This document shows, piece by piece, positions 32,365 to 64,000 of a DNA stretch of 64,000 nucleotides. Under the pieces are notes generated by a model. It searched no databases. It saw nothing but the letters and a program-made list of their open reading frames with translations, and had not been told where the DNA came from. Made by a program: the position numbers and the translations under genes. This DNA comes from Opeltia flavorubescens. Its lineage: Eukaryota > Ascomycota > Lecanoromycetes > Teloschistales > Teloschistaceae. Every line of letters starts with the position of its first letter. Positions within the stretch are counted from its first letter, which is position 1. The stretch is from contig KE546980.1 in assembly GCA_000442125.1 (NCBI GenBank), positions 620,001 to 684,000 on the forward strand, in the 5' to 3' direction.

Positions 32365-34620
32365 TCACAGCTTCGGTCCTTGCTGTCTCCTGAGTTCCTT
32401 GTCCTTGTCCTTCAACATCCTCCGCAGTATTTTTCCGCTGGGACTCTTCGGAATCTTAAGCAAAATTAAGAGTCAGCATTTCCTCATGGAGTAAACAAAG
32501 AAAGCAAGCAAGACTCATCCGACACTTTACTTTGGGGAACTGTCGCTCGGAGCATTACTCACCTCTGGCACAAACGTAATGCCACCCTTGAGCCACTTGT
32601 GTCTCGCCTTATGATTCTCAACATGCCTTTGGATGTTGCGCGTGAGCATCCTGTCGTTCTCCTCGAGTCCTACGGAAGATGATTTGACCACAAATGCCTT
32701 CGGAAGTTCCCCTGCTGCCTCGTCAGGGACGGGTATGACGGCACAGTCGGCGACTGCTGGATGAGTGAGGAGATGTGCCTCAAGTTCGGCAGGCGCCACT
32801 TGCATTCCCTAAATGGAGGTCAGGACTGCTGAACTTCGACCCGTGCTCTATGAACGTTGGGGCTTTGTGAGGAAATGGATACGTACCTTCACTTTGATGA
32901 GTTCTTTGAGGCGATCCACAATGAAGCAGTGCTCCGTGCCTTTGGGACCCTTCCGGATCATCGCTACATCGCCTGTATGCATCCAACCATCTTGGAAGGT
33001 GTCCCTATTTGCCTCGTCGTTGTTGAGGTAACCCAGCACGACGCTAGGAGATCTTACGACCAATTCTCCCGGTTGATCGTAATCTGTAATCTCGGTGCCC
33101 TCGACAGACATGATACGAGCTTCGACCATTGGGAGAAAGCAGCCAGAAGAACCAAACCAGATGTCGTCCGCTGCGGTGGAGCAGACAACGGTACTTGTCT
33201 CGGTCAGTCCTGTGAGACACCATCTGTCAGCGGCACCGAGGTTGACTTTGAGAAGGAGACATACCATAGCCCTGTCTAATGTTCCATTTGGGGTACTGTT
33301 TTTGGAATTCCACGGCTGTTTCTTCACCAAGAGGTGCGGCGCCAGTGAAGAGGCCTCTAACGGAGCTCAAATCGTAATTCTTACATGTTTGCTCCTGCTT
33401 CAACATCGTTATGACTATGGGCGGTACCTGGCAAAAATGAGCCAAGAGAACTAGAGTAATGAATCATGCGGACTGGCAAGCCAACAGCAGGACCACGCGG
33501 TCTCTTGTACATACCACGTATAAGCCATTGATTTGGAATCTCTGGATCGCATTGAGATACGAATGGAGCTCGAATTTCGGAAGATTGATGACCTGATCAC
33601 CCCGGTATAGAGAACAATGGCACACGACAACGAGCCCATAGATATGGCTTTGCGGTAGTAAACCGAGAACGACTTCTGAGGGAGTCCCCTTGTCTCCTGG
33701 CTTCCGGCGACGCTCTCGACCGGGGTTTTCATACGTACACATTTGAAGGGTGTTGGCTATAACGTTGCGGTGTGAGATCATTACACCTTTCTATAACATA
33801 ACAATGTTTCAGCAGGTCCCCCATCAAATTCTACCGATATAACTTACAGGCAAACCCGAAGTCCCACTAGAATAACACAGGAAAGCGGTTTGCCTTGCTC
33901 CTTGACCCTTATTCCACTTGAGCCCCTCTAAAGCAGGTAAGCGCGCTCCCTCTTCAATCAACTGATTTACTGTCTTGAGTCCTTTCGGTAAAGTCTGGCC
34001 TCCGGTAAGTTCTTTGGGTACTTCAAGCACAAAGATCCTGCTCCTCGGTATATTGCATTTTGAAGCAGCTTCGAGCGCTAGCGCGAGGAGTGGTTGGCAA
34101 GTGAAGAGAACGGTCGATCCAGATGATCGTAATTGATGTTCTAGCTCAGCCAACGAGTATGCAGCGTTGGCAGGAGAGGAGATTCCAGATAGCCGGTGAA
34201 TCTGCTCTTCAAGATCAGGACAAGCTCTACCATATAAGATTATAGAAGCCTTTTACATACAGCCCAGGAGAGAGTGATCGTATCAATCTATACAAAGCCC
34301 CGTTAATGATTGTTGGGTCATGACCGATATGATAAACGAACAGTATTGACACTAAAGACACCAGCTACTTTATCCCATTCTGTCCCCTTATTTGGCTCCC
34401 ATCCTAGCTCCTTTGACAGCGCTTTTGCGAGCTTGTCGACTCGATCTTTCACTTCAAGTGCAGAGTATCCGACGCCCGACAGGCCACATGTGAATGGAGG
34501 TCTTGAAATGCTCAACGGGTGCCGCCCATACCGCTCATCGAGCATGAAGTCGCATATTGGGATCGAGTCTGGAGGATCGAACGGAAGCTTTGGCACGGAC
34601 GGCGGCGTCGTGAACACCAT
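32365..34620 (-). CDS. 4-coumarate-CoA ligase-like acyl-CoA synthetase
   Basis: Eight exons (34620..34342, 34287..34261, 34201..33848, 33790..33515, 33427..33265, 33209..32887, 32808..32563, 32454..32365) encode about 585 residues. The ATP-binding core is YSSGTSGLP-KGVMISH, split by an intron. Further ANL-superfamily motifs are LLPQSHIYGL, GAAPLGEET, GYGLTETST, DGWMHTGDVA and the C-terminal catalytic lysine region IPKSPSGKILRR. The enzyme forms an acyl-AMP and then an acyl-CoA, probably from an aromatic or fatty acid. It ends in PKL, a plausible peroxisomal targeting signal. The first donor is GTTCGT. It is far from the isocyanide locus and no link is implied. Confidence 0.88.
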
Positions 34621-40968: not shown

Positions 40969-42113
40969 CTAACCCTCAATCTTCTCCCGAAGGATGCCTT
41001 TCAGGGTGATTGCGTCTGCAGCAAACTTGGAGATCCCTTCCCGCAACTTCTCGACAGCCATGGCCTCTTCATTGAAGTCGAATCGGAACAATGCTTCGTC
41101 ATTAAGGTAAGATTTCTTAGGAATGTCTAGGCTGGACGCATCACTCGAGATCAGCTTCTGAGGCACCTTCTCCTGCGAACTGTACAGTTCTTCGAGAAGA
41201 TTTGGCTGTAAGATGTCAGTAAGGAGCAATGTCCCGCCAATAGAGGAGTCCACCATACCGAGATGGTCAGGTAATCACATCCCGCGAGCTCCGTGATTTC
41301 TCCCTTGTTCCGGAAACTGGCACCCATCACAATGGTCTTGTACCCATATTTCTTGTAGTAGTTGAAGATTGCTTGCACGCTCTTGACGCCGGGATCTTCT
41401 TGCGGGGAGAAGTCCTTTTTCATGGCAGCCTTGTACCAATCAAGAATTCGACCCACAAATGGAGAGATGAGGTAGGCACCAGCTTCAGCGGCGGCAATGG
41501 CCTGTGGGAGAGAAAACATGAGTGTCAGATTGCAATTGACTCCATGCTCGCTCTGCAGAGTTTTTGCAGCCTTGATGCCCTCCCACGTCGATGCTAGCTT
41601 GATCAAGATTCTTGACTTGTCAATACCAATGCTTTTATACAGCTGCATCCCATTAGCTTGTCGTCAGTGATGGACGGAAACGCTGAAGACGAACTTCGAT
41701 GATGTGCAGAGCTTTGTCGATGGAGGCCTGATAGTCGAAAGAAAAGCGCGCATCGACTTCGGTGGAAACTTTACCAGGGACAATCTGGAGGATTTCTTTG
41801 CCGAATTCGACGAGTAATCGGTCGAGGGTAGCATCGACTTTCTCCGCCATATCTTTGCCCTACCCTTAAGGTTCAGCTGCTACTCGTCTTGCTTATCCTT
41901 CTTTTAGCATTGGAAGCTTCTTACATGTTGCTTGCCGTAGTCTAATGCTATATTCATCAACTTCGCATACTCGGGTTTCTTGGAAGCAGCGAGAATAAGA
42001 GAAGGATTGGTGGTAGCATCTTGGGGTTTGTATTTGTCGATTGTTGCAAAGTCTCCAGAATCGCAGACGACCACTGTGCCGGTGGCCTTCAGTTGGTCTA
42101 AGGAGTTTGACAT
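40969..42113 (-). CDS. TAL1: Transaldolase
   Basis: Four exons (42113..41925, 41859..41695, 41642..41259, 41205..40969) encode 324 residues, the usual length. [20 protein letters not shown] opens the TIM barrel, followed by [14 protein letters not shown]. The Schiff-base lysine lies in [16 protein letters not shown], and [20 protein letters not shown] and [12 protein letters not shown] are family signatures. It transfers dihydroxyacetone units between sugar phosphates in the non-oxidative pentose phosphate pathway in the cytosol. The second intron uses donor GTTCGT; skipping it would replace the conserved HIIE-LYKSIGI junction. It is a housekeeping gene and nothing is missing. Confidence 0.95.
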
Positions 42114-50070: not shown

Positions 50071-52918
50071 CTATGCTCTTAACCCTTGCATCAAGTCGTG
50101 AATCCGGTCAATGACCACCGCTCCTACACTGCCTACGCTCTCACTAACAACGGCCTCGAATCCTCGAATCGCTTCCTCTTCGCTAACACCCAAGGCGAAC
50201 CTCTCCCTCACCTTCAAGACTGCTTTATCTGGCTCCAGCCTGATGTCCTGAATGTTTGCATCAACCATGAGCGCGAAAAGATTCAGGATCAAGTTGCTCT
50301 GTTTTCGAAGCGTTGTGAATGCAGTATGGCAATATTGCTTGAAAGTTTTGGTAAACAGGGAAGACGAAGGGCCGCCCATCCCTTCGATCATTTCCCGGCA
50401 AAGCTTCATTGCGGGAGCAAAGGGCTTCGGATCCCGACCCAAAAGGTAACCGAAATCAATATGGAAGAAGTGACCATCGGGCGTTAGGAGGAGATTGTCA
50501 AGGTGGCGGTCACCGACCCCAAGAAGATAGGTGATGACACAGTATCCGGCACAGGATTTGACGTACGTGTCCATCGCCGCGGGACGGACACCATATTCCG
50601 CGGCTGAATCGGGGTTATTGGTACGCAGGTAGGCGAGGATGCTACCTTTGTGCTTCGCCCAGGCAGCAGCAAGGGAAATTGAAGGGATGAATTGGACGGC
50701 GCCAGCGGTCGGAGACGTGGCAAGGATCCGATATGGGGTCAATTTCAGGTCAAGGTTTTCTTTGCGGAGGAGGCGGTCCATAAGAGAAATGATCTGAATC
50801 ACAAGCTGATCTTGGCGGAGATCATCGCCCGTCTTGAACATGACGGGATACTTCTTGCCGTCGGACGTCTTGAAGTTGATGAGGAGCGGGAAGAGCGATG
50901 ATTTGAAAACCATAGAGTCGTCTGGATAGACGCTGACGACCGAAATGCTTGGGTCCAGGGGTAGAGGTAACGGGGGATCAAAGTTGGTCAGCTCATTCTT
51001 GGGGTCGGCAAGCATTTTCCGGAGACGTTGCGCTTTCTTGGGCCTATCCTCACGAGAGAAACGGACGTCTTTCGATATCTTGGAAAGGACGGTGATCAAC
51101 TCGCCCTGGCGTAAGAGCGTCCTCCGACGCTCAGGTCCATCTGCCACTTGCACAAGTTTGGCCATAAAGTCATATTCAACTTTCGCAAAGAGCTTTTGAT
51201 GATCTTTGCTTTGATCAGGGCTGCGGTCTTCGCATTCAACCATCAAATACCAGTGGAGATAGTTGCCGAGCATCAGATTCTGGGTCGCTCGAGATATGAG
51301 AAATGTAGCAAGTGAAGAATCCTGAGTGCTATCTTCGGGAGCTATCTTCTCAAACTTTAACGCTTGTACGAGTTGGAGGAGATAGAGCAGCAGCTCCTCG
51401 TCATCAGACTCTCGCAAGCGATCAACGGCATAAGCTCTCACAGCTGGATTGTCTAGCGAAGGACCAAGGAGCTCCAAAGCATCATCGATGTCAATTTCGG
51501 TCCATTTTGGCAGGATCTGTACGGCTTGCTTGGCTTCGTTTTGATCTTGCCAATTTACCGATTTGACGAATTTGGTTAACGCGCGTTTATCTTTGGTGAG
51601 ATGGTGTCGAAATTTCCAGACCAAGTCAACCTCCTCCCCTTTCAGCTCCTGGGTCGGGCCATACGACATGATAGTATTTAATTCGTCGCGAATCTTTGCA
51701 TTCGGCTTCAGATCACGATCCAGAATTCCTGTCCGATGACTCCGGACCAAGCGTCTGTGCTTGCTTTCCGCTGGGTTATCTTTCTGGCCCACTTCCGGAT
51801 CATAGATCGTGATCAGGGGCAGAGCATTGGCGTCATCGCCTTCAAATCCATTGGCCGTGCCGTTAATTCCAGGTCCAAGTTGAACCTCCGGCGGCGGTTT
51901 AAGATTTACGTTTCCAGTAGTCGGTGACGGATGAGCCATGAACGATACAGGTGTAGGTGAATATTCAAAATCCGTATAAACGATGGGGAAATTGAAACGT
52001 TGAAACTCAATAATCAACGTATGCTTACTTCCTTCCTCGTCTGATCCAATGCTGTTTTCCTCCTCGCCAGCATCCATGCCCAAATCATCACCACTCCTCA
52101 TATTCCGCGCAGTCCTTATGGCAAGCTTGGCTGAGGCTTCAACTTCTTGCCTCTTTTTCTCCACCGCTTTGAAGACCAATTTGTCAAGCCAGTCCACCCG
52201 GGGTATTTCACCCAGTTCATGCTTCTTAAAAAGCTTCTCCAATCTGTCCAGCTCTATCTCATCGGGTGATGGAACATGGTTGCTAGCTTTACCGCTACGG
52301 CTTCGGCTTCGTTTAGGTTGGGGAACGGAGGGAGTTTTTGTGGAAGAGTAAGGGTCTGCTTGTTTGTGGCGATAGATACGGCACCGCTGCTGCCCTTTTT
52401 GAAGCACGCCATCTTTGTCGAAGACAGGAATGGTAGTTCCGCCGAAGGGAATAGCGTGGCCTTTGGCACCGGGCCCTCCCGTAGGCGAAACGTCCCAAAC
52501 AGTGATGGCAAGCTGTGAGCTTTGCGGCAGTGTTGATATTCGTATAGGTAGTTCAAGCCATTCGTTCCAGATGCGCGCATTCTTGAAGGACTTGTACGCC
52601 GTCTGCACCGAGACAGTCCAGGGTTTTGAATCGGCCCATAATTGGACGGTAACGTAAAGGTCAGAGTGTGGACTAAAGGGTTAGATTAGCCCAAGTCGTC
52701 GAAGGAAATGATTAGCTCACCTGCCTCGTGTTCGATCCTATAAACCTAAGATCCGGTCTTTGCAACAAAGTGGATAAGGGGGGAGGGTCGTAAGGACCAT
52801 CCAGGCTCGCTCTAATTCTCTATCAGCGAGGAAAAGACTCAGGACGCGTTAGGACGAACATCCTTACATGGAGAGGTAAGTCGAGGTCAGTCGACTTGGC
52901 GAATGAGTACTCCTCCAT
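50071..52918 (-). CDS. VPS34: Phosphatidylinositol 3-kinase VPS34
   Basis: Three exons (52918..52868, 52819..52725, 52672..50071) encode about 915 residues. The C2 domain (SDLYVTVQLWADSKPWTV) is followed by the helical PIK domain (RRLVRSHRTGILDRDLKPNA) and the kinase domain with VMFKTGDDLRQDQLVIQII, the catalytic loop GVGDRHLDNLLL and HIDFGYLLGRDPKP. It makes PI3P for autophagy and endosomal traffic, bound to VPS15. The second intron fits only as GC-AG (AG|GCAGGT...TAG), giving GSNT-SPHSDLYVTV; a normal GT donor four bases on breaks the frame. The frame stays open upstream of the chosen Met at 52918, so a further 5' exon ending just before 52980 is possible. Confidence 0.93.
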
Positions 52919-53407
52919 TCCCACCGTAGCTGTAATGCTCTGGTTCACGTCGGATACTGCGGCGAGATTGAATCTATTAGCCTAAGGCGGCGTTAAGCGG
53001 TTTTAATAAGCTATGAGAAAGGGACCCTGGTTTACAAATTGATATGACGATTTGTGCTAGGCGCTTTTCATGTGTGTGAATGAATCATTCTAGAATATCT
53101 TATGATAGGTAAATGGGGTTTCGAAATAAGATAGTGGGATACGGCAGTCATGATGAGCTTTCCGTCAACTATTCGAAGGGTTAATGCATCAGACTATATC
53201 GATTGACTTTCTTTCCCTGAAGAACTCCGGCTCGACAGCCCCTTGTATTCAAATCTCTGGTCATTATCAGACATAACTCTCCTTTGGTAGCAACGATCAA
53301 TCTAGCTAAGAACATTGCGAGGTGTTCATGATCCTCGGTTCAAGAGCACGATGTGGTCACTTCTTTTCCTCATCGACCTTCCACTGTTCCAAAATCTCGT
53401 ACTAGGA
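52919..53407. other. Boundary between VPS34 and the isocyanide locus
   Basis: About 490 bp holds the VPS34 promoter and possibly an unresolved 5' exon near 52919-52980, then the 3' flank of the synthase-transporter gene. Nothing else seen. Confidence 0.4.
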
Positions 53408-56400
53408 TCACTCTTTATCCCTCTTTCCCTTTGGCACTCTGGCAAGCCAATAAAGCCAAACAGCCGCCGCGACGTTGAAGACCACATATATCAGGAATAT
53501 CCCAAAGTTCCTCCACCGATCTCCATACTCCGCACTCACGTCCCGTAAGAAGATATTAGTTTCGCTGCCACTACAGAATACACATTCTGTCGTCGACCTC
53601 ATGCTGTCAGGCTGGAGATAACCGCCAAATATTCCGATGTAAGAATCAAGGTAGTCTGAGCAGTTCAAAGGCGTGGGAGGAGAGAAATGTAGAAATTCTT
53701 CGGCGGAACAGGAGATATGCGCGTTGGCCAGCCCGACTGATAGCATCCCGGAGACTAGGTAGGTAAAGGGAGACACGCGGTACATGAATATCCAGAAGCC
53801 TGGGAGGGCGCTTGGTGTTGCTAGGACGCTGATGGGGTTATGTCAATACTGGTCTCCCACAAATGATGCCTGGCTTGAGGGAAAAGACGTGGAGCTAGCT
53901 GATACAATGGAGAGGTAAGGAGGTTGGTTTAACGTACCCGCAGAAGATCAAGGAAAGTGAAAACAATAGATTGGTAATATTGCCCGCCGCTTCAGCAGTC
54001 TCAATCCCAGCCACAACCATGTTCGTAAATGTCCCAGCAAAGGTCAAGAACGTCAGAATAAACAGGAACATCAGTGCTCCTCTTTCGGCCACCTGATCTG
54101 CCTCGACGGCGTTTTGGCGCAGTCCTATGGGGTAGTACCAACCCACAAAGACGAGCACAGCCATCAAAAAGTTCCAGGGGATCTCAACGAGGATGTTGGA
54201 TAGGATGAAGACTTTCCATGAATAGGTCTTGGATGGACGTTCTCGAACTTCATAGAGAGCCCGTTGGGTTATAAAATGGGGCATGATTTGTTGACAAAAA
54301 TTGGAGAAGATTGTGAGGAGCATGAAGACAGCGAAGAGTTGATTTTGCAATCCTTGGAGCGAGTTGGGCGTTTTCCAAAAGGAGAATCCAATGAACATCG
54401 CCTGGGGAAACGTTAGACAAGTGGTGTAGTGCTCTTGAAAGGTTTGGGACATACGCTGAAGAGACAGAGAGCGACTTTGGAGTACAGATACGAAGGTGTA
54501 CGCCAGTATTGCTGGAATACTCGCCTAAGCACAATCCAGAGCTGCGCAACTAACGGAGCTGCGAACGGCCGAAGTGCGTCTGGATCGTCCGTCGATATCG
54601 AGTGCTCCGAAAGTGTTTCTCTCATACTGGCAAGTTCGGCTTTGATGGTTTTACGTTCTTCTGATTTGTTCCAGATAGCTGGCCAGTCCTGGGTGGGTTC
54701 CGAGCCAGGGACTGCTCCGGTGACTTCAAACATCCATTCCGCGGGGTTTTCGTTGTGATGGCATGGCCTAGCTCCGTTGCGTCTGAAATAGTTGGTAAGC
54801 GTCTGTGAGGATTCACCAATCTCACCGAAATAGAGAGTCTTGCCTCCCATGGCGAGAAACAGCAGACGATCGAATTCTTGAAATAGAATGGCCGAGGGCT
54901 GGTGAATGGTGCAAAGGATGGCTTGGCCGTTGTCGGCGAGCTTTCGGAGAAGAACACAGATAGACCAAGCAGTCTGACTGTCAAGACCTGTATAGGGGTC
55001 AGCCAAACCACCACCGCCCATTTATGGAGGACCCGCTGCTTGGACATGAGGAGTTTACGGACCAGAAGTCGGCTCGTCAAGGAAGAGCAACAAAGCAGGT
55101 TTCGCAGCGAGTTCGACCCCAATGGTTAGGCGCTTTCGCTGTTCGACATTCAGACCTTGGTCGTCGTTAGAACATAACATTCCAAGCTGCAGTAGCAAGT
55201 TTAACACGGATACGTACCTTCTCCGGGTACCCCAACCACAGCATCAGCGTATGCTTCCATCTCGAGAACCTTGATGACTTCATCCACATATGCTACCTTG
55301 TCAGCGCGAGAGGTAGCCTTTGGCTGTCGTAGAAGAGCGCTGAAAGTCAATGCCTCTCGAACGGTGGAGGTGGCTAGATGTAAATCTTGTTGCTGGACAT
55401 ATCCGGTCTTCCGCTGGAAACCGGTATCTCGAAGTCGGCCATTGACCAGAATCTGGCCGCTGATGACACCCATCGTGAGTCGGTTAGCTAGTACATCAAG
55501 TAAGGTGGTTTTGCCGGCTCCGGTAACACCCTGTCGTATGTGTTAGCTATTTTGTCTTACTTCTTTCCATGGGAAAGGGAACATACCATTAGAGCTGTCA
55601 AAGTTCCAGGTACAACCCAACCATCTACCTCATCCAAGATTCTTCGCGGCTCTCCCTTGATCTTGATATCATAGTTGACGCTATCCCAATGAAATATTGC
55701 ACTCTGCTTCTGGATGCTGGCAGGGGCATCAGGCGCCGTTTTCTGCCGGGCTAACGTTTCCGTGTTGACTCTATCATCGGTATTGGCTTCCACATCGAGC
55801 TTCAGCTGTAAGTCTGGTACTCTACCTCGTTGAAACAATAGTACTTCGCCCTTGGACTTCTTTGCCGAGATGTACTCAGTCGCTAGAAGATAGACGAAGC
55901 AGCCAAAGATCATCAATGCAATCATGACGCCAAGATTCCTGTAAACGTCGTTCAGCAAAATCGGCCTCTGAGCTCAATATGTATGCTTCTAAAGAACTTT
56001 GGAGTAACACATACCTCCATAGGTGATCAGCATGATAATTGAAGTTGACACTCAAGTAAGTATCTCCATCGACAAAGTCTGCTCCTGCGGCAGCTCCGGT
56101 GGTTGCACAGATCTTCTCGTTGGAAAACACGTCGCCATATCCTGGTCCTTGAGGAACGTATTGTGTACAAGGTATTGCGCGGTCGTGGAACTGAAGCCCC
56201 GTCAGACATGGCAGATATATACAATTATGACGTTCGTACCTCATTAATCATCAGTGCTTCAAAAGCATAGCCGACCGGGTTTATATAGTTGATCCATCGG
56301 AACCAGGGGTGCATGTCCTGAATAGGAATTGTGAAACCTGTGTAGATGACCAGTGCTAGACTAAAGATCGAAGCTGGTGCCATAGCCTGAAAGGTCAGCA

Positions 56401-59400
56401 CGGAAGCGCAAGCGATGGAAAGATGGCTTTACCTGTGGAAATGTGCGGGATAGTGCGGCAATGCAACGGAAGTACATTGACATGGTGAGTGTACACGTGA
56501 ATGAGAAGAGAAGGAATACCATGAAGTGGCCAGGTGTGCGTCGCAGGTTGGTCATGAAGTAGAGGGTAAGATTGAAGCCAATCGCGGTAAGGATCTTATT
56601 GGGCAGATCACAGATCATGGAGGCTTCGATACGTCAGCTCAGGCAGTTCAACACGGTACTAGTAGTTTACCAATTGCTTCAGCAAATGGATGGTAGAAGG
56701 CATACTTGGATTGCTTCTCCACGATTGGCCGTTGGGCATATAGAGTCAAGATCTATCCATGTTAGCTGTACTCCATGAGCTTACGTACTCGGACGAACCT
56801 CCAAGGCACTGGCGAAAGCTGCCAACAAGATCGCGAAGAAGATTAAGGCGCCACGACCGTAGAGAGAGCCAGTGTTGTTTGGCAGGTTGTAAAAGACACT
56901 GCCAACAACGAGCGCCATTACTGAATTGAAAAGGACGCCGGTAATGACCAAAGCCATATCTCCTCGAAGTCTCTGGTAACCTCGTCGGACACACAACTTG
57001 ATCTGCATTGGAACCGAAAGAGTGTACGGCGATTGTATGCGTCTACATTTCAGTCAGTGTAAGCTTAAGTCAAGGTAAAGATTCACCCGACTGAGATCTC
57101 GCTTGCAGAGATTTCCGTGATTGTTTGAATGCATCAAGTGACGGTCCCCCTATTGGATACTGGCGATCGAAATCCTCAATCTCCTGGAGCAGACATGCGC
57201 GATCCTCGCTCTTATGCCATACCGCAGCAAATTCATCTGGTGTGTAGGGCGTCTTGCCTTCGAAGCCTTTACGAACTATCCTTTCGGCTGGATTGGTCAA
57301 TGATGTGAGGAAATCCGCCGTGGTCTGTCGTGGCGGGCATTCGAACCCTATATTGACGAAGAATGCCTTTGCCGCATGAATATCTCCAAAGTAGATCTGG
57401 CGGCCTTCATATAGCACAACGGCTTTGTCAAAGACCTTCACTGTTTAGTAAGGTGACGTTCCCTGATTGGTGAGACCTACATCATAAATGGACTGCGAGG
57501 CCTGGTAGAGTGTTACGATCGCCGTCGCTCCGGTCAATTCTGTTGAGATCCTAAGCGTTCGCACAAACTCAAGAGCCGTAGCGCTGTCAAGTCCACGGGT
57601 ACTATTATCCCAACATTGAAGAGGGCTGCCCGCGATAGCACTGCGCAAAAAATGCGTTAGCCACAAGATCATAGATACGCTGTCTTAGGGGCGAGTTACG
57701 CTTCAGCAATGCTAACACGTTTCCGTTCACCACCAGAGACTCCTCGAATAAAGTCGTTACCAACCTAATACCCAAGTCAATCAAAGCTAGGAAAGATGAT
57801 TAAGAGATTTCAGACCATTGTATTGACGGTATGGCCAAGACCAAAGATTGTCATGACCACATCTCGTAGATGTTTTGCGTACATCTACGGAGGCAATCAT
57901 TACAATGTCATTCACAATAACGCCTCTTGCAGAGAGAGTGGTTCATGGACACCCACATCTATGCTGATACCAGGCATGCGGTTGCGAGGAGCCTTGGAAG
58001 GGTTAGTCAAGCATTCACACATTAAGGAACTACACTCAACATACCCTAGCACGAGCAGCAAAATCGAGAGTCTGACCCACAGTTAACTGGGGGAAATGTA
58101 CATCGACCTCAGCCTGGTAAATGCATTCTCCTCGGAAGTCTCTGTGCATTATTTCCTTTGGAATGCCTTGATAATTCAGATAAGACCCCTCCGATACAAA
58201 GAACCCGTCAGTCTCGCCAGATATTGTCTTCACGAGCGTCGAACAACCACTACCCTTATTAGTATTGCTCTTCTTATCTGTTCGTGGTCACACTTGCCTT
58301 CCCGGCCGTCCCAATACCACAAGCATCTCTCCACTTTTGACCAAGCCATCGAAATTTTCCAATATCTGGATCCTGGTCTTCTTACCCATCCCAAGAAGCC
58401 TCTTCGCCAGGCTGAGTAACCTAAGAGGGTAATTCCCAAACGTCTTCTGATAGTCAGTCGGTTCTCCGAATCCATGAGCTGACAGGTTTTTGTAAGCTAC
58501 ACCAGCAACCCTCTTGGGATATCGTTCGGGATCCTTCGACGTAATGCTCATAAGCGTTTCAAGCCATGCCCTTGAGCTAAATTCCCGGGACTTCGGATCC
58601 AGCGAAGGATGCTCAGACCCAAAGAAAGGATTGATAAGTTCTCCTTTCTCATTCTTGATACCGGGATATGACAAAGTCCTCGCAAGCTCGACAATCTTTT
58701 CCTTTTCGCTTTTGTCCGTAAATGAGCTGACCGATGTGGATGATTGATGCTCAGGCTTCTCTTCCACTTGCTTTGTCGGTCTTTCGAGGGAAACTTCGGT
58801 GTTTGACACGAGACCGACAGGTTGCCCATTGAGCGATGACGTTCCTTGATAGCTACTCGACGGTTTCTCACCAACGACAGGTTCATTGACCTCGCACGCC
58901 TTCTTTTTGAAATAGCTGGGGCGGCCATCCTCATATATGATTTCCAGGGTAGTGTCTTTCTTAAAATCACCCATCGTCGCGCTAATCCACTCGCCATCGG
59001 CCATCAAGGCGACGCTACAGTGCCATGGAGTCGTGTACCCGCTTTTGGTGTTGAGGAGGCTCATAGAAACTTTGTGTTCGCCTGTAGATTGATGGATGGA
59101 AAGGCGTAAATGGTTTGGGAAGGCGGATTTGACCGCCCCTGCAAAAGCCTGCTCGCGAGATTATTAGCTACAGTAATCACCAAACATGCTCTGGCACTTG
59201 AGCTACACTTACGTATCCTCGGATTAGCATTTGTTTGGCGAGGTACTTCACGTCCTTCTTGTACGATTTGTTCGATCTACCGTTACCCAGTGGAAAGATA
59301 TATCGCAAATCTGACTCCAGGAATCTCCTGTATCCAAGATACGTCATCTGCGTATCCGGATTCGTGGCAATTTGATGATCGATGTCGAGGTTATCATCCC

Positions 59401-60077
59401 CATATTCGTTAAAGAGAAATCGACGAAAGTTAGTTGCGTTGGCAACGTAGCTGATCTCATCTAGCTTCTCTGGTAGAGGAAAGTTGACTAGGTCTTTAAG
59501 CCTAGAGAAATCAATGTGGCGAAATCTCTTCTGGACGGCCATCTTGCGCAGAGCCTCTCCGTAAGCCCAAGTATCGCGATCCGATATGCCCAATAAGTCT
59601 GTCGACACACAACGACAAATCAGCAAGCGTATCAAAGTAAGACTTGTCTTAGCTAGAGTGAGACGAACCATTGTAAACAAGACCGTCCGAGATGATAGTT
59701 AGCTTGGCTCCTGGTGAGTACACCCCTCCAATACGTATGCACATGGTATCCAGTCGACCGAGAGCTAATTCCTCAGCTTTATCTGGTAATGTCCCAAGCA
59801 CTTTGGAAACTTTATTTGCCGACTTGAACGGGAATGCTGGAAGGCACATTTCCACCATCGCACCCCCTTTCACGAACTGGTCGATGACTGATAAGAACTT
59901 GGGCCTACCAGCAGCTATTCTTTCGATAGAATCACCGAATTTGTTGAGAGCATAATCGAAAATAATGTCCAAGATCATATTTGCAGTCTCTGTCACATCC
60001 ACTGAGGCTTGCGATGAATTATCGTCATACGCAGCAATGCCTACATGGCCCGTCATGATTGGAGGAAGAGATTGCAT
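53408..60077 (-). CDS. Isocyanide synthase fused to PDR-type ABC transporter
   Basis: Twenty exons (ends: 60077-59669, 59598-59213, 59148-58298, 58249-58045, 57992-57957, 57884-57816, 57764-57700, 57640-57481, 57435-57092, 57042-56799, 56752-56671, 56623-56433, 56386-56240, 56190-56015, 55938-55587, 55530-55218, 55155-55063, 54987-54455, 54401-53938, 53828-53408) give about 1846 residues with every phase consistent. Residues 1-348 are a DIT1/PvcA isocyanide synthase ([53 protein letters not shown]), which turns an amino acid amine into an isonitrile. A Ser/Lys/Glu linker (about 349-415) leads into a full-size PDR transporter: NBD1 ([30 protein letters not shown]), six helices, NBD2 from 1240 ([28 protein letters not shown]), six helices, end GKRDKE. 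Both halves look intact. The NBD1 Walker A cysteine is normal for PDR proteins. Confidence 0.87.
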
Positions 60078-61622
60078 GGCAGGCAGAATAGATAGGTATA
60101 ATGGGAGAAAGGAGAGTGTTCAGCATTCAGTTCCAAATCGAAAGAAGGTTTGGCACAAGATCCACAGCAATGAAAGAGCCAGTGCATATAAGAAGTTGCC
60201 GCCCTCGTTTTAATATTACTATATGCTTTGACTCGATGAGACGGATAGGAAGTTTGATTTCATGGTAGCACAGCAACCTAGAAGATCGATACCTTCATTC
60301 AAGAGAATTCCGGGCCCCCCCCAAGAAAACTCCACCCCCACTTGATCATCCCGAGCACGCCATGACCTAGCTGTAGGTAGGACCAGCAGCCGAGTCTGGG
60401 GCTACGTGACATGGAGATTTAGACAACGTGGTTATGCGGGGTTGGAGGCTGGAAGGTTGATCGGGCTCCTGCGGTCATAAAGTTGGTGTCGTGGACAGCC
60501 TTTGGCGGGTCTTCAAGCCGCTCGTATTCATCCATCACCACGCCGACACTTCGGTTTCTTGTCGACAGATCCACTGGCAGCGGTATGAGAGTGGCACTCA
60601 AAGGAAGGATTGTTTCCCATTGGAATCTAGAGCCGAGCTGTGTAGATGTCTGGATCCAAGGTTACATGGACTAATCAACGGGAAATTGTTCCGGGAGGAT
60701 GAGGCATCTGGACTACAACGGATACGGAAGAAGATTTTCAATTTCTCGTTGATTGCCTGCAGGCATAGTGACCCACTCTCGTAATGTACTTAGTACGACG
60801 TTATTTCGTGATGTGCTTGCTGTCAAAACATTGATGATCGGATGTGGTTAGCACACGGGAACTAAGCTTGCAGAGGCGCCTTGGCGTCGCTCGAGCCGTT
60901 GTGGCTGCGTGAGTGGGGATAGCAAACAAAGTGCCGACATTGTGCGTCCGAGGGTTAATGACGATTGTTTTGTCCGATAGGACGCAAGTTCCCTCTACCA
61001 AATCCAGCAGGGTTCACTATGTGAAATCCAATTAATCTCACAGGACGTGAATATCTATATACCGATTGACGTCAAGGCCGCTCGAGCATTCCAATGGAGG
61101 AGCTATATGTATCCACAACGGCCTATTGCTATGCATCTACCCCGTATTGCTTCGTGTGAAGGGACATTCTATCACCTATCGGACAAAACTTCTATCTTCA
61201 ACCCTCGGTCCAACCAGAAGGATGACCACACAGAGGAGATTCCTTTGAAATCGAACTCGGCTCCACTTCCCACACAACGTGCACGCTAATCAGCGCCACA
61301 TGCTGTGTATCTCATCCAGATGCGCAAGTAATATAGTTTGCTTTCGAATTCGGGGGGCCAGAAAGTGCGACTGGCTGCCCGAAAGTCGCAAAGAAGCTGG
61401 CCTCGTTTACCACACCCACCTGCTGAGCTATCATGCCGAGATCGCGGGATGGGTTCAACGAGATTGTGCTCCTGCTCGAATGGGTGTACCGATATCTAGG
61501 TATGATGACTTAAGTAGGTGTAGCGTCCAAATTATCATTCAAACGCCAATGTTTCGGATTTCCTCCTTGAAGTGTATTGATTTGCTTCTCGCTTTTCCAA
61601 CATCCTCTTGTGAACTGTTGCA
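60078..61622. other. Divergent promoter region of the isocyanide locus
   Basis: About 1.55 kb separates the minus-strand synthase-transporter gene and the plus-strand NRPS-like gene, so both promoters must lie here. A run of eight C occurs near 60315. I could not find a convincing repeated or palindromic regulator site by eye; near matches to the copper-type TTTGCTC core near 61340 and 61575 carry a mismatch. Confidence 0.45.
60419..60601 (-). other. Possible small open frame upstream of the fusion gene
   Basis: A 60-codon minus-strand frame (MSATLIPLPVDLSTRNRSVG, ending PTPHNHVV) has protein-like composition and lies 340 bp before the synthase start on the same strand. It has no recognised domain. 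It may be an upstream open frame, an unlinked small gene, or chance. Confidence 0.2.
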
Positions 61623-64000
61623 ATGGAAGAATGTACCCCAACGGAATATGGCAAGAGACTTCTCCCTCAGATCTTGGACAACCTGGCTTCCACCGAGCCA
61701 GATCGTATCATATACTCCGTGGCAACCTTTCCCAACCTTTCCCTTGAGTTTCAGCACATATCTGCCTGCACTTTTGCGAAGGCAGTTGACAAAACTGCTT
61801 GGTGGCTCCATAACAACCTTCCAAAACCCGCGTCGGTCCAGACTGTTGGCTATATCGGCCCTCGTAAGTTAGCTGGAAACCTATGAGCACGGCATTGCTG
61901 TCTCGTTCCGTTGTGGCTAACCACATCAAGATGATATTCGACACATCCTGTTAACCTACGGCTGTATCAAGGCGGGCTACGCTGTAAGTATCAGCTACTC
62001 TATATCAATTTCATTGACCGCTCCGGCTGTTAGCATTGCTTACTTTTCGCTTTCGTGGAGGCCTTATTTCTTTCTCCCAAGAATAGTACTGGAGGGGCTT
62101 TAGCAGTCCTTGAAGCATCAAAATGCAATATTTGGGTCAAACCTTGCGAGCAGCCTCGTCTTCCTTTGGTGGAAAGCTTCCTACAGAATCGTCCAATGAA
62201 TGTTCTGGATCTCCCTACAATCGACGACCTTCTCGACGCTGAAACCGCCGAACCGTTCCCATACACCAAGACGTTCGATGAAGTTATCCAGGACCCATTC
62301 TGCATTCTGCACACGTCTGGAAGCACTGGAGTACCGAAGCCTATCTCATGGTCTCACGGTCTAGTCGGTACGATGGATGCAGTGCAGCTGCTTCCGCCGA
62401 CCGAGGGCGACGATGGGTTGGCCCCATGGACATCGCTATNGACGGAAGGCGATAGACTGTACTCGGCGTTTCCTATGAGCCACGTGCGTATACCGTACCC
62501 AACGGTCCTGGAAAGCCAGTGACTAACCGCATGAGGGCTTCGGTATACAGGGTGCTGGTGTTATTATGGACATCCTTTTGCCTTCCCTTCTCGGTTTGCA
62601 CTGTATATTGGGACCTGCAGGTGTTATACCCAACATGAATCTTGTGGAGAATCTTGCAGAACATGGGAAAATTGATATCTGGAGTCTGGTTCCATCGCTC
62701 GTTGATGAGCTGGGCGAGGACCCTGATATCTTGGCAAAATTCAAGCCGTCGAAGTTTATCTGTGCATCTGGTGGTACGCAAGATCTTTTCCTTACTCCAC
62801 GCTTTACGATAATGGCACTAATTTCCTTGCATTAAAGGTCCCGTCAGTCCAATCAGCGCAGGCAAAGTGAACGACGTAGTCAGAGTTCTCAACTTGACAG
62901 GTACGACAGAGGGTCTGTTCATAGGTAACCTTGTGGTAGAGAGAGAAGACTGGCTTTGGTTCGCCTTTCATCCCTTCTCCGGCTTCGAATTCAAAGAGAC
63001 AGAACCCGGTGTATATGAACATTGGGTGCACCGCAATGAGCACTGGCCATTATTTCAGGGCATTTTCCATACGTTTCCGACCGAGCAATCCATCAATTTC
63101 AAAGACTTATATGTCAAGCATCCTACCAAGCCAAATCTTTGGGCCTTCAGGGGAAGAAGCGATGATACGGTCGTCTTGTCCAACGGCTATAAGATATCTC
63201 CTTTAGAAACAGAGGCTTTTATTACTACAAACCCAACAATCAACGGCTGCTTGATAGTGAGTCAGCCCGTCCATATTCTCCCCAAGTCCAATCAAAGCAG
63301 CGCCCCCATAGCCAAAGTATTAACACTCCACAGATTGGGACTGGGAAACCTCAAGCAGGCCTACTCATTGAATTGAAAGACCCGTCATCTCGAAGCGATG
63401 AGCTCTTTGACAGCATATGGTCAACAGTAGAACAAGCCAACGCACTGTCTGTACATAGGAACCAGTTGCTGAAGGACTACATTACCTTTGCGGAGCCAGA
63501 CAAGCCCTTTGTCCGCACCGACAAGGGAACAGTGAAAAGACATGCCACCTTAGCACTATACGCCAATTACATTGACCGTTTCTATAGCTCACGAGATGAA
63601 GACTTGGATGTCGTCACGATTGATTCAAGCTCGGTTGCGTCAATCATCGATTCCATTCGCCACATTCTCGGCTCTTTATTGCCTGCGATTTACGAAGCTT
63701 CACCGGATACCGATGTCTTTAGTCTCGGGCTCGATTCTCTCCTTGTTTTTCGGGCTGTCAAGACTATTCGAGCTGCTATGGGGATCAAGGATCAGCTCGC
63801 TCCTCGTCACCTTTATGCAAATCCTACCCTCAATAAGTTCTCAGCCGTTCTTGTACGATTAGCGGCAGAGGCGAGAACGACAGGCGAAAAGGCTTCAGAC
63901 AACTTCGCTGATAACGAATCGGCCAAGATGAGAAGCATGATAGACAAGCACAAGGCGCGGCTATCATTCAAGTTGAACCCATTTGACTACGTGAACCCCA
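61623..64000 (+). CDS. NRPS-like enzyme, adenylation and carrier domains (partial, runs off window)
   Basis: Six exons are visible (61623..61863, 61931..61983, 62061..62483 with an alternative in-frame start at 62037, 62551..62773, 62838..63256, 63334..>64000). The adenylation domain has FCILHTSGSTGVPKPISWSH (A3 core), YSAFPMSH, NLTGTTEGL, LWAFRGRSDDTVVLSNG and the A10 lysine region RTDKGTVKRH. A carrier domain follows with the phosphopantetheine serine in FSLGLDSLL (about residue 588). The frame continues (RLSFKLNPFDYVNP) past the edge, so at least one more domain, perhaps a transferase, is expected. Such proteins activate a carboxylic acid as a thioester. Its head-to-head placement with the isocyanide synthase suggests it modifies or couples the isocyanide acid. 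One ambiguous base lies at 62440. Confidence 0.88.

Follow-up and report, generated by a model that had tools for sequence, protein, structure and literature searches.

A predicted isocyanide synthase encoded in frame with a full-size PDR exporter in the genome of Opeltia flavorubescens

Introduction

Fungal metabolite pathways usually encode the exporter as a separate gene, and the pairing of a pump with its product is often guessed. In MprF-type proteins a synthase and a flippase are carried in one chain, so that the product is made and moved by a single polypeptide; MprF resembles the protein described here in this respect and differs from it in belonging to unrelated protein families and in having a lipid product. 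Isocyanide synthases of the PvcA type use ribulose-5-phosphate together with an amino acid, while PDR proteins have a cytosolic N-terminus.

In the available text of Lim et al. 2018 (PMC5974471), the fungal synthases are described as lone enzymes, as dioxygenase-fused or as NRPS-fused. A survey preprint by Nickles et al. 2023 covers 3,800 clusters in 3,300 fungal genomes (PMC10153163), and in the available part of this text every synthase in its set fits one of three layouts, namely ICS, ICS-TauD or ICS-NRPS-like; genes of the MFS class are given as the commonest neighbours (about 60% of clusters), and the CrmA fusion is interpreted as a lone synthase that became linked with an NRPS-like gene next to it. 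The survey input, as described there, consisted of annotated genomes downloaded in September 2021, and later or unannotated genomes fall outside it (PMC10153163).

Here we describe a locus in a 64,000-nucleotide stretch of the Opeltia flavorubescens assembly GCA_000442125.1 (contig KE546980.1, positions 620,001 to 684,000; hereafter the window, in which all coordinates are given). The synthase encoded there shares the DIT1_PvcA domain and most conserved residues with other PF05141 synthases (PvcA, 3e59; fungal IcsA and XanB; yeast Dit1), which in the available text of both papers stand alone or carry a fused TauD dioxygenase (PMC5974471, PMC10153163), whereas the partner of the window synthase is a predicted transporter. 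Like the CrmA-type ICS-NRPS-like fusion it joins a fungal synthase to the product of another gene, and an NRPS-like gene adjoins it; unlike in CrmA, the NRPS-like part is encoded by a gene of its own, divergently oriented, and a PDR exporter takes its place in the fusion. By analogy, the ICS-PDR fusion would represent an event like that behind CrmA, with an exporter instead.

Results and Discussion

Gene model and domain organisation

The fusion gene was spliced by hand on the minus strand (60077..53408), which gave a model of 20 exons and 1846 amino acids, with a spliced reading frame that is divisible by three and has no internal stop. The 19 introns range from 45 to 109 nt, and 18 of them have GT-AG borders; the exception is intron 3 with GC-AG, and the donor of intron 9 (GTCGGG) is weak. 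Splice sites were picked by eye with the conserved PDR motifs used as a guide, and at the splice junctions (e.g. within the NBD1 Walker A) the residue-level sequence is in part an assumption. An earlier sequence-only reading of this DNA had given the same end coordinates, the same third exon (59148..58298) and 19 introns, all of which were reproduced by the hand-splicing with the frame kept.

Exon 3 (58298..59148, minus strand) is an unbroken stretch of 851 nt which carries the C-terminus of the synthase, the linker and the N-terminus of the PDR part. The junction between synthase and PDR homologies rests on no splice site; the earlier proposal that it lies inside a single open exon, independent of any splicing guess, was borne out, and the linker could be placed at 58899..58690. 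At the DNA level the fusion is confirmed.

Pfam searches placed DIT1_PvcA (PF05141) at amino acids 65-332 of the predicted protein (E 1.7e-99), the match covering profile positions 1-269 of 273 with 333 bits against a cut-off of 26.4, and so lying above the gathering score and near full length. ABC_trans_N (amino acids 419-504; 58432..58689, minus strand; Pfam 3.4e-22), two stretches of ABC_tran, two stretches of ABC2_membrane and PDR_CDR (amino acids 1075-1164) were found in the same chain and together form the set of a full-size fungal PDR/ABCG protein. The motifs of NBD1 lie at 57586..58311 and those of NBD2 at 54980..55530 (both minus strand). The sequence-only reading had suggested a Pfam search as a check, and DIT1_PvcA, ABC2_membrane and PDR_CDR were all recovered from a single predicted chain; its claim that one polypeptide would comprise both the synthase and a full-size PDR pump is supported by the spliced frame, by these domains and by the codon use of the linker (see below).

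The synthase and transporter halves

Synthase homology extends over 58900..59894 (minus strand; amino acids 62-348), is interrupted by introns 1 and 2, and is indicated by the Pfam domain, the match to PvcA and a set of conserved columns. The similarity to PvcA (3e59) has an E value of 3.9e-31, and two further PDB synthase sequences (9dhm and 9dh4) were also matched. The match extends to residue 320 of the 330 residues of PvcA, and the synthase therefore appears to be complete ahead of the linker. A prokaryote scan provided a bacterial set for comparison (65 synthase frames from 58 loci, partly redundant since 13 of the 58 loci are from Photorhabdus). At columns conserved in at least 90% of these frames the window synthase agrees in 35 of 39 cases, although seven of the 39 columns fall in the peptide patterns with which the bacterial frames had been retrieved (the other columns agree in 28 of 32 cases); the departures from the bacterial consensus are A87, Y135, S310 and S321. 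A decayed synthase was considered and rejected, given that 35 of the 39 conserved columns are kept. Against the L-tyrosine isonitrile synthase PvcA equivalog (NF045653) a score of 133.6 bits was obtained and the cut-off of 600 was not reached, so that by profile score the window synthase is related to this equivalog and is not a member of it. By homology, the N-terminal part is predicted to be an isocyanide synthase. The highest 19-residue hydropathy value in the first 418 amino acids is 1.18, while eleven peaks of at least 1.6 occur in the protein, the first at amino acid 871; from the low N-terminal hydropathy and the cytosolic N-terminus of PDR proteins, the synthase is predicted to be soluble and cytosolic.

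When the PDR part was aligned with CDR1 (9iuk), residues 23-1431 of the 1432 submitted were included with a score of 1567 bits, and a decayed pump was rejected in view of this near end-to-end alignment. Six ATP-site motifs were sought in the PDR part and all were present. The NBD1 Walker A is without its lysine, reading GRPGSGCST compared to GRPGAGCST in CDR1, and its second half hinges on the ends chosen for intron 3. Both CDR1 and 7p03, which we take to be Pdr5, share the full-size layout and the ATP-site motifs with the fusion, while fungal PDR/ABCG exporters differ from it in that the fusion carries an enzyme ahead of the usual N-terminal tail. The C-terminal part is accordingly assigned, by homology, as a putative full-size PDR/ABCG exporter, and both halves of the protein look intact at the level of sequence.

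Proposed function

We think it fairly probable that the gene encodes a bifunctional protein in which the synthase is tethered to a PDR exporter, with the isonitrile made at the membrane and either it or a derivative exported. A cytosolic N-terminal synthase would be joined by a 70-residue linker to the N-terminal end of a full-size PDR/ABCG exporter and, held at the inner side of the membrane, would turn an amino acid (together with ribulose-5-phosphate, as PvcA-type enzymes do) into an isonitrile. The attached pump would then export the isonitrile, or a derivative finished by other enzymes such as an NRPS-like one; the synthase product may be processed before export because an NRPS-like gene is adjacent. 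In this manner a reactive, metal-binding product would be cleared where it arises, with synthase and pump produced in a one-to-one ratio. The weakest step of the scheme is the direct hand-over of the isonitrile from synthase to pump, which we infer and consider plausible; a tether by itself is no demonstration of channelling. More tentatively, the protein could be a dedicated synthase-exporter, with the isonitrile made on the pump and leaving without a free cytosolic pool (self-protection by geometry in the setting of a fungal natural-product pathway), or it could by itself both make and export a metal-binding metabolite destined for secretion; this stronger form is possible but somewhat doubtful.

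An alternative which we regard as unlikely is that the fusion is real and has no functional coupling, being neutral and lineage-specific, with the two halves working independently or one of them being lost. The layout is absent from the available text of the fungal survey (PMC10153163), so the fusion may be a single recent event, as such a history would have it; however, most conserved residues have been kept in both halves and the 20-exon model remains in frame. If the tethered synthase-exporter is real, the covalent link would directly indicate what class of substrate a PDR transporter handles and give a route by which exported isonitriles could be looked for. It would also offer a natural test of whether enzyme-pump coupling protects the producer, and would bring the number of architectures described for fungal isocyanide synthases from three to four.

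One gene or two

Intron 3 (58250..58297, minus strand; 48 nt) lies within the NBD1 Walker A, and the open frame of exon 3 (58288..59160) reaches a stop inside it. The locus might on this account give two products, the full fusion and shorter forms such as a soluble synthase-linker stub arising through intron 3 retention, but retained introns that carry stops are often mere splicing noise and we consider such a dual output improbable.

Whether the single frame could conceal a gene boundary was judged from the linker itself (58690..58899, minus strand; amino acids 349-418), the 70 codons (210 nt) which separate the two homologies mid-way in the 851-nt exon. It contains no methionine and no stop, and the nearest in-frame methionines are at amino acid 324 (in the synthase) and amino acid 465 (in ABC_trans_N), with none between; a PDR start at M465 would truncate ABC_trans_N. 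A hidden boundary between two genes was considered as a candidate and is thought unlikely on these grounds. The linker is rich in serine, glutamate and valine (13 Ser, 10 Glu, 9 Val, 6 Lys and 5 Pro among the 70 residues), a predicted composition which suits a flexible tether.

Codon use was scored with eight long open frames of the window as the yardstick (taken as coding and scored leave-one-out), stop codons being excluded from the scoring. The linker gave 8.2 bits in frame, compared to a mean of 8.9 bits for 128 in-frame stretches of the same length, 62 of which scored no higher than the linker. Wrong-frame stretches had a mean of -10.7 bits (n = 256) and none was as high as the linker, nor was any of 25 overlapping stretches from two intergenic control regions. 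A second frame across the linker is likewise free of stops, so its openness alone says little and it is the codon use which carries weight.

Possible introns were scanned from 59212 to 58450, which gave 16 candidates; seven of these have a CTRAY branch motif, and every one of the seven overlaps the known intron 2. Within 59138-58450 there was no candidate with CTRAY, even among 118 obtained with relaxed settings (looser donor and acceptor), of which 16 have a looser branch motif. When the branch-motif requirement was dropped, five candidates were left in 59138-58450, one of which (58771-58727) would merely trim the linker by 15 codons. As a control, the strict filter recovers 10 of the 19 introns of the fusion gene itself, and 13 of 19 without the branch motif. 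CTRAY is present in 14 of these 19 introns and missing from the other five, and its absence in the linker is for this reason supporting and not conclusive. No AATAAA-type motif was found in 59000-58300. TATA-type motifs were also absent from this interval, yet the 423 nt ahead of the start of the fusion gene lack them too, and the TATA scan therefore says nothing on a boundary.

Judged from these features, 210 coding-like bases that contain neither a stop nor a start leave hardly any room for an ordinary fungal gene boundary. That two separate genes, or an assembly join, merely resemble one frame is very improbable: the evidence is a single sequence, with three ambiguous bases in the window (none of them in the fusion gene), and the relaxed candidates make introns possible around the junction, but the whole gap looks coding and offers neither a stop at which the synthase could end nor an in-frame start from which a full PDR protein could begin.

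Comparison with other synthases

The fusion as one synthase-exporter gene has an ICS-PDR layout which matches none of the three layouts in the available survey text (PMC10153163). The sequence-only reading had listed no transporter fusion among known fungal synthases, in agreement with the available text of both papers (PMC10153163, PMC5974471), and relative to that survey text ICS-PDR probably combines known parts in a new architecture. A synthase-ABC fusion was not named in titles or abstract starts among the open-access matches listed. The 10 longest of the 65 bacterial synthase frames were also searched with Pfam, and no ABC transporter domain was found in any of these 10; six carry TauD, one cNMP_binding and DUF924, one TetR_N and two the synthase alone, with the qualification that the frames run from stop to stop and some N-terminal parts are perhaps untranslated. 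The frame with additional domains other than TauD or TetR_N (L048:4660-7455) is a bacterial stop-to-stop frame in which cyclic-nucleotide-binding, DIT1_PvcA and DUF924 domains occur together. A search of viral contigs matched eight stretches, none of which is a relative.

Genomic neighbourhood

The NRPS-like gene (61623..64000, plus strand) starts 1.5 kb from the start of the fusion gene on the opposite strand, so that the two are divergent, and runs off the window. Hand-splicing gave 684 amino acids without a stop, with one ambiguous base at 62440, and Pfam searches on three pieces identified AMP-binding and PP-binding domains. The divergent synthase-exporter and NRPS-like pair resembles the left-hand border of a biosynthetic cluster running off the window. 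Between the divergent genes there is an open stretch of 80 amino acids (60419-60661, minus strand) with no Pfam match, which may be a gene remnant or due to chance.

The window was also scanned for a Mac1-type copper-starvation motif, of which 12 copies were found compared to about 8 expected (at equal base frequencies). None was located from 50422 to 64000, including the region between the fusion and the NRPS-like gene, and there is thus no sign of copper control there. No dit2-type P450, the mark of a dit superfamily cluster, was found beside the synthase among the 11 open frames, out of 69, that were scanned left of the fusion.

Frames left of the fusion matched a PI3-kinase, an SNase/Tudor protein, Cu/Zn superoxide dismutase, transaldolase and a short-chain dehydrogenase, along with a Zn2Cys6 factor and AMP-binding pieces. 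The piece of a transaldolase gene (41154-41663, minus strand) lies some 12 kb beyond the end of the fusion and belongs to the ribulose-5-phosphate pathway; most likely this is a housekeeping gene that is close by chance. A second AMP-binding enzyme gene was observed in pieces at 32851-34252 (minus strand), about 19 kb from the fusion.
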